Source: Thermococcus sp. JdFR-02
Lineage (GTDB): Archaea > Methanobacteriota_B > Thermococci > Thermococcales > Thermococcaceae
NCBI GenBank assembly: GCA_002009975.1
Contig: MTLP01000020.1
Coordinates: 1 to 61,511, forward strand
Length of the DNA stretch: 61,511 bases
Direction: 5' to 3'
Below the pieces are notes generated by a model. It was not told where the DNA came from. It searched no databases and saw nothing but the letters and a program-made list of their open reading frames with translations. The translations under genes were made by a program, and so were the position numbers. This document shows positions 8,937 through 11,675 of this stretch, piece after piece; positions within the stretch are counted from its first letter, which is position 1, and the number at the start of each line of letters is the position of its first letter.

Positions 8937-9932
8937 ATGAAGGTTGTAATTATGGCTGGAGGTTACGCTACTCGTTTATGGCCCATAACAAAGGATAATC
9001 CCAAGGCATTGCTTCCTGTTGGGGATAAAGTAATCATCGATTATATTCTTGAAAAGACAAAAGAGCTGGATTTGGAGCTTTATCTCTCAACCAACAGATT
9101 TTTTGCTTCCCAATTTAAAGAATGGGCAAAGGATAAGGATATTACCCTTTTAGTTGAAGAAACTCTGCATGAGGAGGAAAAGCTTGGCACAATTGGAGCT
9201 TTGGGTGAAGCTGTTAAAAAGCTCGGCTTAGATGATTATCTTATCATAGCTGGAGATAATCTGTTCTCCTTTAGTTTAAGAGACTTTTTGAGTAAATATG
9301 ATGGGAAAACTCTCATAGCCGTTTATGACGTTGGTGATTTTGAGCTAGCTAAGCGCTATGGTGTTGTGCTTTTAGAAGATGATAGAGTTGTAGACTTTGA
9401 AGAGAAACCGGTGAAGCCAAAATCAACTTGGATAAGTACGGGTGTTTACATATTTCCAAAGGAGATTATGAGTCTCATCCCCGAATATTTAAAGGAGGGC
9501 AATAAAGACTCTCCTGGATATTTCGTGCAGTGGCTTCTCTCTAAAGGAGTTGAAATTTATGCTTATCGCTTTGATGACTATTGGTATGACATTGGTTCCT
9601 CTGACAGCTATCTGGAGGCTATGAAAACTTTGTTAAAGGAAAGTCACATTGAAGAGATTCAGATTAGTCCGTATTCAAAAATAATTCCTCCAGTTGTTAT
9701 TAGGAAGGGGGCAAAGATTCTTGGAAGGTCAATAATTGGTCCTTACGCCTACATTGGCGAGAACTGTATAATTGAAAACTCTGACATAAGTGATTCTATA
9801 ATCTTTAAGAACACTGTAATTAGGAATTCAACGATTTGGCGTTCTATAATTGATGAGAAATGCGAAATTAGGAATTTAGAGCTTAAAAAGAGTTTAGTAG
9901 GAGGACATGCAAAGATACAAAGAGGAGATTAA
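8937..9932 (+). CDS. Sugar-phosphate nucleotidyltransferase with left-handed beta-helix tail
   Basis: Enzyme of 331 residues that activates a sugar-1-phosphate to an NDP-sugar. The nucleotidyltransferase core opens with VVIMAGGYATRLWPITKDNPKALLPV, the G-x-T-R-L-x-P signature with its Lys, and has IIAGDNLFSF around residues 101-110. The C-terminal third (from about 235) has hexapeptide repeats typical of a left-handed beta helix. The nucleotide and sugar (GDP-mannose or NDP-glucose class) cannot be decided. RBS GGGGTGGTG precedes the ATG. A decayed copy of its 3' end lies at 28347-28494. Confidence 0.92.
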   Translation: MKVVIMAGGYATRLWPITKDNPKALLPVGDKVIIDYILEKTKELDLELYLSTNRFFASQFKEWAKDKDITLLVEETLHEEEKLGTIGALGEAVKKLGLDDYLIIAGDNLFSFSLRDFLSKYDGKTLIAVYDVGDFELAKRYGVVLLEDDRVVDFEEKPVKPKSTWISTGVYIFPKEIMSLIPEYLKEGNKDSPGYFVQWLLSKGVEIYAYRFDDYWYDIGSSDSYLEAMKTLLKESHIEEIQISPYSKIIPPVVIRKGAKILGRSIIGPYAYIGENCIIENSDISDSIIFKNTVIRNSTIWRSIIDEKCEIRNLELKKSLVGGHAKIQRGD

Positions 9933-9971: not shown

Positions 9972-10442
9972 TTATCGCCCTTCTTCTATCCACTTATTCC
10001 AAATTTTGGCGACTTCATATAACAATTCTCCAAATTTTTTTGTTGTTCGGTAGTATCTTCGTGATTTGTAAATCATTTGAGCATTTTGAAGGGTCTTTAT
10101 AACGATGTTATAATTGGTCTTTGTAGTTCCAAAAGGAATTCCTAACTCTTTTGCTTTCTTCTCAACTTTTCTGTGAATCTCTGTCCTAGGCAATTGCTTT
10201 TCAACGAGTATTTGATAATAGGTGGTTAATTCTCTGTTATCAAGATATCCCAATATAAATTCCAGCCATTCCTCTGAATGGAATCCTCTTTTTCTCTTTT
10301 CAGCGTTGTGAATATGTTCCAAGAGCATTTTGGCTAGTTTTTGTCTTTCTGGATGGTTTGGGAATAATAACTTCAAGAGTTCTTCCAAATTTTTCGGCTT
10401 TTCCTTTGGGATAATGATTTTAGCTATGGGAATATAAGGCAT
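9972..10442 (-). CDS. Uncharacterised basic protein, possible winged-helix DNA-binding regulator
   Basis: Protein of 156 residues that I do not recognise. It is predicted mostly helical and basic; residues 70-140 (LTTYYQILVEKQLPRTEIHRKVEKKAKELG...) have the look of a helix-turn-helix followed by a YKSRRYYRTTKKFG wing-like segment. The RBS GAGGTGA precedes the ATG. It is transcribed away from the DUF257 gene, and the shared gap holds a 25-bp dyad (10512-10536), which would suit an autoregulator. That role is inferred from layout only. Confidence 0.6.
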   Translation of the reverse strand: MPYIPIAKIIIPKEKPKNLEELLKLLFPNHPERQKLAKMLLEHIHNAEKRKRGFHSEEWLEFILGYLDNRELTTYYQILVEKQLPRTEIHRKVEKKAKELGIPFGTTKTNYNIVIKTLQNAQMIYKSRRYYRTTKKFGELLYEVAKIWNKWIEEGR

Positions 10443-10536: not shown

Positions 10537-10624
10537 TAAAATTCATACCAAAAGTATTAAAACTGAGTAGGATTTATCTAATAGTGATACGTCTCATGAA
10601 TAGAGTAGTTTGAGGTGTACAACC

Positions 10625-11272
10625 ATGCATTGGAAAAGTTCTGAGAACTTGTGGAATTTACTAAAACCTGGAGAAACTATATTAATAGAGTATTCTGCAA
10701 GATCCACTCCATTTATTGTGTTTTATAGTTTAATACAATGGGCAAAAAATAATGATTTTGAGATTCTCATCGACGATATTCTGGATACATTATATGCGTA
10801 TAAGGTACAATTAAGCCTAGCTGGAATTGATTTGGATTTGTTTAGTGATTTGTTAGTCATAAAAGAGAGCGGTAGAGTGGAAGTTGGAAGGATTGTTGGG
10901 CGTATGGGAATTCGAGATTCTGCGATATACTGGAGTGAATACAATAAAATAATGAGACCAATTTTTGAGAGAGCTAAACGATTGATTATTAACATTATTC
11001 TTGGGATTGAAAAACTTTTTGTATTGGCGGATAGCAAAAGGGAGATACTTAACAATATAAACAATATTTTGTCCTGGACAGGAAATACAAAGAGGATAAC
11101 ATTTTATTTTATTAATACTGACTTAGTGAACACTCTTGGGATTGGAGTGCTCCCACTTCTTGAGGAATTAGCAAGTACGGTTATCAACGTTGACAAAGAT
11201 GAAGGAAGGGTAAAGCTATTAATAACAAAATCGATAAATAACGAGCTAGATGGGCTGGAAATAAACCTCTAA
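10625..11272 (+). CDS. DUF257 family protein (Thermococcales RecA/KaiC-like fold)
   Basis: Protein of 215 residues resembling DUF257, a family largely confined to Pyrococcus and Thermococcus. It has the typical start with a LWNLLKPGETILIEYSARSTPF segment near residues 9-30, an RVEVGRIVGRM motif in the middle and a FYFINTDLVNTLG strand late. I chose the ATG at 10625 because GAGGTG at 10612-10617 sits at the proper distance; the TTG at 10610 overlaps that RBS. The function is not known; the fold is thought to resemble RecA-like ATPases without a clear Walker A, and none is seen here. Confidence 0.8.
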   Translation: MHWKSSENLWNLLKPGETILIEYSARSTPFIVFYSLIQWAKNNDFEILIDDILDTLYAYKVQLSLAGIDLDLFSDLLVIKESGRVEVGRIVGRMGIRDSAIYWSEYNKIMRPIFERAKRLIINIILGIEKLFVLADSKREILNNINNILSWTGNTKRITFYFINTDLVNTLGIGVLPLLEELASTVINVDKDEGRVKLLITKSINNELDGLEINL

Positions 11273-11299
11273 ATTTTTCTTTATGATATTATAAAAAAT

Positions 11300-11478
11300 G
11301 AGGGGCATCATATAGGAGAAGGCCTCGGGGCGGAGGTTTCACCCTGAGACAAAGTTTACATCTTCACAACACGAACCTTATGACCTTGGGCTGATCATAA
11401 AGTCCATGTTTTTAGATGCAGACTTTGGGTCGAGGCAAAGCTTTCGCTTCGAAGTCTTCTACCTATACGATACCCCTC
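11300..11478 (-). ncRNA. Unassigned structured RNA gene with its own promoter and terminator
   Basis: The 382-base gap 11273-11654 holds a relatively GC-rich block that folds only as minus-strand RNA. The ends pair over 17 bp (11462-11478 with 11300-11316), extended by AGAAG/CUUCU past one bulged base. Inside are a 6-bp hairpin with a GAAA tetraloop (11436-11451), a stem joining 11415-11426 to 11351-11362, and an 18-bp hairpin (11368-11410) with loop AGCCCAA. Two pairs in the closing stem and four in the long hairpin are G-U on the minus strand; on the plus strand they would be A-C mismatches. A TATA box at 11499-11507 places initiation near 11478, and a run of six Ts (11292-11297 region) follows the 3' end. 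It does not look like RNase P, SRP, tRNA or a C/D box RNA; the family is not recognised. Confidence 0.8.
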
Positions 11479-11498
11479 ACACTAAGGTTGTCTTTGAA

Positions 11499-11507
11499 AT
11501 ATATAAA
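11499..11507 (-). promoter_or_regulatory. TATA box of the structured RNA gene
   Basis: Minus-strand TTTATATAT, preceded by a purine-rich BRE-like AAAAAGC. Its centre is about 25 bases upstream of 11478, exactly the outer base of the closing helix of the RNA. Confidence 0.75.
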
Positions 11508-11675
11508 GCTTTTTATTTCTTAATTTTAATTTAGAACAAAGTAACATTTGATATTATTAAAAACAACTACCCACTAAATTGGAGATTTAACAAACGTTTA
11601 GATGCATATTGTCCAAATATTTGTTTTTAATGCTAACTTTAAATAGCAATACGCATGATTTATGTTGGTGAGTTA

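Follow-up and report, generated by a model that had tools for sequence, protein, structure and literature searches.

The question raised by this locus is whether a 179-base intergenic block of Thermococcus sp. JdFR-02, at positions 11300-11478 of the 61,511-nucleotide stretch of DNA analysed here (the window), is a gene for a structured RNA and, if so, what such an RNA could do. The original prediction had described it as a complete, unassigned structured RNA gene. Both the sequence and the coordinates of the block were correct, and the covariance model shifted its ends slightly, from 11478-11300 to 11479-11297 (Table 1). The sequence evidence indicates with very high confidence that a real structured RNA gene lies within these bounds, and the element is almost certainly free-standing, non-coding and about 180 nt long. 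This is supported by the absence of Rfam matches, by compensatory changes among homologues, by a promoter at fixed spacing and by the lack of a long closed frame: no ORF of at least 60 aa overlaps the RNA in the window, and no closed stop-to-stop frame longer than 43 aa occurs in any of 46 homologues. Two general features of non-coding RNA genes, base pairing conserved with compensatory changes and a promoter of its own at the 5' end, were both found, the promoter as judged from sequence. We rate the family as new but its kind, the free-standing orphan structured RNA, as already known, because assigning it to a new kind would require a demonstrated mechanism; it is very probable that the family is undescribed.

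Table 1. Features of the RNA gene and of the gene toward which it is transcribed (window positions).
Feature	Position	Strand	Basis
Sugar nucleotidyltransferase gene (PF00483)	8937..9932	+	Domain match and neighbourhood analysis
T run, probable transcription terminator	11293..11298	-	Sequence
Structured RNA	11297..11479	-	Covariance-model bounds
P1 closing helix, 3' arm; both-side changes in 9/17 pairs among homologues	11300..11316	-	MFE fold and alignment
P4 region with conserved GRAAC motif	11324..11348	-	Homologue alignment, subfamily comparison
P3, apical 18-bp hairpin; variable sequence, pairing kept	11368..11410	-	MFE fold and subfamily comparison
P2, AAGCGAAAGCTT hairpin, GNRA tetraloop, near-invariant sequence	11438..11449	-	Homologue alignment
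P1 closing helix, 5' arm, 17 nt	11462..11478	-	MFE fold and homologue alignment
TATA box TTTATATA	11500..11507	-	Same spacing in 44/46 homologues
BRE and further conserved upstream region, to about -85	11508..11565	-	Homologue column conservation

The minus strand (11480-11298) was predicted to fold with a minimum free energy (MFE) of -96.4 kcal/mol versus -44.9±4.2 for 200 dinucleotide shuffles (z -12.2), none of which was as stable. The plus strand of the block folded less well (-84.3, z -9.1), the sense strand was the more stable one in 44 of the 46 homologues, and antisense matches of the covariance model scored well under their sense counterparts, in agreement with the earlier choice of the minus strand as the transcribed one. 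The predicted outer helix of 17 bp (P1), its extension of 5 bp (11460-11456 with 11321-11317) and the 18-bp hairpin (11410-11393 with 11385-11368) were all recovered in the MFE fold. Two other points held in part: G-U pairs are present, but the fold has 11 of them and not the six that had been named, and the GNRA hairpin, whose sequence is present and conserved in homologues, has its arms paired elsewhere in the MFE fold of the window copy. As a single sequence this copy folds into one long irregular hairpin, and many homologues fold the same elements into a closing helix and three hairpins.

The first full-length relatives were found by BLASTN within the family Thermococcaceae, and a covariance model made from seven of them located the RNA in 40 of 94 Thermococcaceae genomes. 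A second model, made from 44 sequences, raised this to 45 genomes at E≤0.05, and a search of 115 genomes (12 genera) from the whole phylum gave no homologue outside this family. At E≤0.001 the count is 42/94, with all six genera represented. A sizeable and strongly structured RNA family, present in 42 genomes of one archaeal family, is absent from Rfam; one match (G015, E 8e-4) is weak and doubtful, and lies 1.07 Mb from the nucleotidyltransferase locus. The carriers presumably include the laboratory species T. onnurineus, T. barophilus, T. sibiricus and Palaeococcus pacificus. The genome that we take to be T. onnurineus (G026) appears to carry two copies, and expression of the RNA may thus have been recorded already and gone unnoticed.

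Several genomes hold more than one copy or traces of one. JdFR-02 itself has a second copy (contig C7, 79189-79359) that is 51% identical to the window copy, and in three genomes two diverged copies stand in tandem, about 320 nt apart. In G043 two RNAs 28 kb apart (contig C6, 85827-85987 and 113624-113784; L066 and L067) are 100% identical while their flanks and promoters differ and one TATA box is changed, which suggests gene conversion or cassette exchange. A search for overlooked copies near the nucleotidyltransferase gene at 40 loci, almost all from genomes without a firm match, revealed only partial or decayed relics in G081, G022 and G061; looking for suitable folds next to TATA boxes yielded nothing convincing, and no copy was seen directly behind this gene in the other negative genomes inspected.

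The compensatory substitutions sought among Thermococcales homologues were found. In the 44-sequence alignment the 17 pairs of P1 were standard-paired in 95.4% of cells, with changes on both sides in nine of them, and the helix is predicted to remain stable at 85 °C in nearly all of the 46 homologues. The covariation score of P1 plus P2 was 0.396 against 0.08-0.19 when partners were slid by 1-3 columns, and double changes occupied 83 cells, where shuffles gave 34±8. P2 contributes little to this support because it is conserved chiefly in sequence, and P3 is paired in every subfamily, with many pair types. The register of P4 varies by subfamily: one has a perfect helix, a second uses a different register, and in a third the 3' strand of P2 is the better partner. 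P4 may thus form its own hairpin or pair with P2, the preference differing among subfamilies.

The upstream sequence also points to an independent gene. A TATA box placed for initiation at the outermost base of the closing helix had been predicted, and the centre of TTTATATA indeed lies about 25 bases from the helix start, a spacing that is constant to within a base or two across the homologues counted in Table 1; six T follow the 3' end (11298-11293), as had also been noted. Column information among homologues is close to background beyond -100, rises from about -90 and is highest at -80 to -71 and -40 to -21. Most RNA copies in the main Thermococcus subfamily carry, within this upstream block, the near-palindrome TTTTGCTTTAAATAAAAGCAAA, which overlaps the BRE, together with the element GAAATTATTTC; these two conserved blocks beyond BRE and TATA span about -85 to -35 (e.g. 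L050 and L057) and suggest a dedicated regulator. A 39-bp promoter core (up to 3 mismatches) occurred at 19 sites in 18 genomes, every one directly upstream of an RNA copy, and was found before no other gene. As conservation begins about 85 bases upstream and the promoter core is exclusive to RNA copies, the RNA appears to be its own transcription unit.

Among the neighbours of the RNA in the window and other loci are genes for STT3/AglB, a polysaccharide flippase, an RmlB-type epimerase, a UDP-sugar dehydrogenase and a DegT aminotransferase, for DUF835/DUF257 proteins and for ATP sulfurylase and APS kinase; the surroundings are those of an N-glycan and sulfate-activation locus. With the nucleotidyltransferase gene in 85 of the 94 genomes and the RNA in about half of them, this gene does not need the RNA, and co-occurrence of the two was rejected since the gene is core. 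Among the 46 copies that share a contig with the nucleotidyltransferase gene, 45 lie within 41 kb of it, the exception being the weak G015 match, and 32 lie within 2 kb. All copies within 2 kb point toward this gene (33/33, once a further copy truncated at a contig end is counted), 28 of them convergent with it and five codirectional; overall, 43 of the 46 are transcribed toward it. Several copies stand 8-72 bp from the gene end, one subfamily has the RNA 13-18 kb away, and the second JdFR-02 copy is on a different contig from the gene. The RNA gene is therefore accessory, and the locus to which it is tied is core. The gene nearest to the RNA 3' end in the window encodes a DUF257 protein (10610-11272, plus strand), which is convergent and ends about 25 bp away. 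A conserved protein family of about 155 aa (MPYIP.AKI...; window 9972-10442, minus strand; L014:5225-5686), without Pfam match, is often present in several copies near the RNA in the JdFR-02 genome and genus g6.

We searched Rfam 15 by cmscan with the whole window, with the window RNA (E up to 10) and with 15 homologous loci (E up to 1). Two tRNAs were the only matches in the window, and the best matches in the RNA itself were chance miRNA hits (E 0.7-3.3), none attaining a family's gathering score or a significant E-value; a known Rfam family was thus excluded. This agrees with the earlier statement that the RNA is not recognisable as RNase P, SRP, tRNA, C/D or simple H/ACA RNA, and the proposed comparison with the hgc RNAs gave only HgcC-like matches outside the RNA. 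The RNA ends in UGAGGRG and CYCCUCA, without the RUGAUGA and CUGA boxes near the ends that mark C/D guides, and the 3' end is CUCACU or CUCAUU in nearly all copies, without the ACA box after a stem that marks H/ACA RNAs, which gave no Rfam match in the window RNA or the homologous loci. Omega RNAs of IS200/IS605 elements overlap or abut the 3' end of tnpB; TnpB is absent beside the window RNA and present in only two of the loci examined. Other kinds of element were also rejected: a MITE-like element, since conservation runs about 85 bp past the 5' terminal inverted repeat; a plasmid-borne element, without any plasmid match; and an origin in viral contigs, where three short-pattern matches share merely 12-14 nt with the model and are due to chance.

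Among known systems, orphan RNAs have been described in P. abyssi, of which sRk48/sRk52, known from six P. abyssi loci and a single T. kodakarensis locus, are nearest in kind: they have their own BRE/TATA promoter, 130-180 nt, covarying stems and several copies per genome (PMC3124441). If the window RNA were sRk48/sRk52, copies would be expected in both species. However, the two genomes that we take to be those of the model organisms P. abyssi and T. kodakarensis (G004, G024) gave no match to our model, so the distribution differs and this identity was rejected. Orphan RNAs have also been reported for T. kodakarensis and for T. onnurineus (PMC4247193, PMC5316973). HgcC (RF00062) and sscA of Pyrococcus are likewise structured orphan RNAs of this archaeal order, but neither has a covariance match to the window RNA, the weak HgcC-like matches lying outside the RNA in two loci. 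RNAs of the OLE, ROOL and GOLLD type resemble it in their discovery through conserved structure, their restricted hosts and a function unknown or found late, but the window RNA matches no Rfam 15 family. Bacterial 6S RNA, of about 184 nt, is, like the window copy, a long hairpin closed by both ends, and it binds RNA polymerase as an open-promoter mimic; unlike it, the window RNA has no Rfam 6S match and many homologues form three hairpins.

Taken together, we see an even chance that this free-standing RNA acts in trans to serve the surface-glycan locus, in which it would probably be a protein-bound regulatory RNA. P1 would protect the RNA ends, P2 and P4 would bind protein or each other, P3 could hold copy-specific information, and the resulting RNA-protein particle might regulate the adjacent surface-glycan genes in trans, its synthesis being itself controlled through the extra promoter blocks. 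Against this reading, the link to glycan genes is one of position only, and the locus is variable and may collect unrelated genes. The patchy distribution, the G043 pair with different surroundings, the tandem pairs and the relics also fit a somewhat unlikely reading, an accessory or selfish cassette of promoter and RNA (about 260 bp) that travels with an exchangeable glycan island without benefit to it and might serve as short homology for island swapping. However, compensatory changes keep the pairing and the promoter spacing is retained, which suggests that selection acts on the transcript, and the near-fixed direction (43/46) is unexpected for random insertion; plasmid matches are also missing.

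The convergence of 28 of the 33 close copies with a gene that several of them nearly touch could mean that the RNA acts in cis, the transcript and its terminator blocking or destabilising nucleotidyltransferase read-through or insulating the edge of the glycan operons. We consider this quite improbable: five close copies are codirectional with the gene, one subfamily is separated from it by 13-18 kb, the second JdFR-02 copy is on another contig, and the near-invariant sequences of P2 and P4 would be needless in a terminator or insulator. That the RNA has merely diverged from a known class (H/ACA or C/D guide, RNase P, SRP, 6S-like or transposon-associated omega RNA) is very unlikely in spite of the 6S-like length and long closed hairpin, the comparable orphan RNAs of Pyrococcus (PMC3124441) and an IS605-type TnpB gene near two copies, as the Rfam searches gave nothing significant within the RNA in the window or the 15 loci, the 3' end has no ACA and TnpB is missing from the window neighbourhood and most loci. 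Although the RNA is intergenic and beside metabolic genes, as a leader, riboswitch or 3' UTR element of an adjacent mRNA would be, such an origin is extremely unlikely: the RNA has a promoter and T run of its own, its neighbours vary among genomes, and the gene facing its 3' end is encoded on the other strand, both in the window and in 28 of the 33 close copies, an orientation on which a riboswitch or leader was rejected.

An RNA in trans at the surface-glycan locus would be of interest because, to our knowledge, no RNA has been described that regulates archaeal surface glycans, and the position, direction and dedicated promoter make a knock-out directly testable in a tractable carrier strain. 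In its boldest form, which we think improbable, it would belong to a novel archaeal RNA-protein particle controlling cell-surface glycosylation or sulfation, with a switch between two P2/P4 pairings that exclude each other; the variable P3 arm would then mark each allele of the glycan locus.

Lastly, the TnpB genes near two copies are at L069:4852-6162 (minus strand) and L078:1201-2352 (plus strand). Sub-threshold HgcC matches outside the RNA were seen at L038:1798-1991 (minus strand), L038:874-1006 (plus strand) and L046:256-372 (plus strand), L038 also giving sot0042, and HgcC itself may be a transposon-associated RNA.
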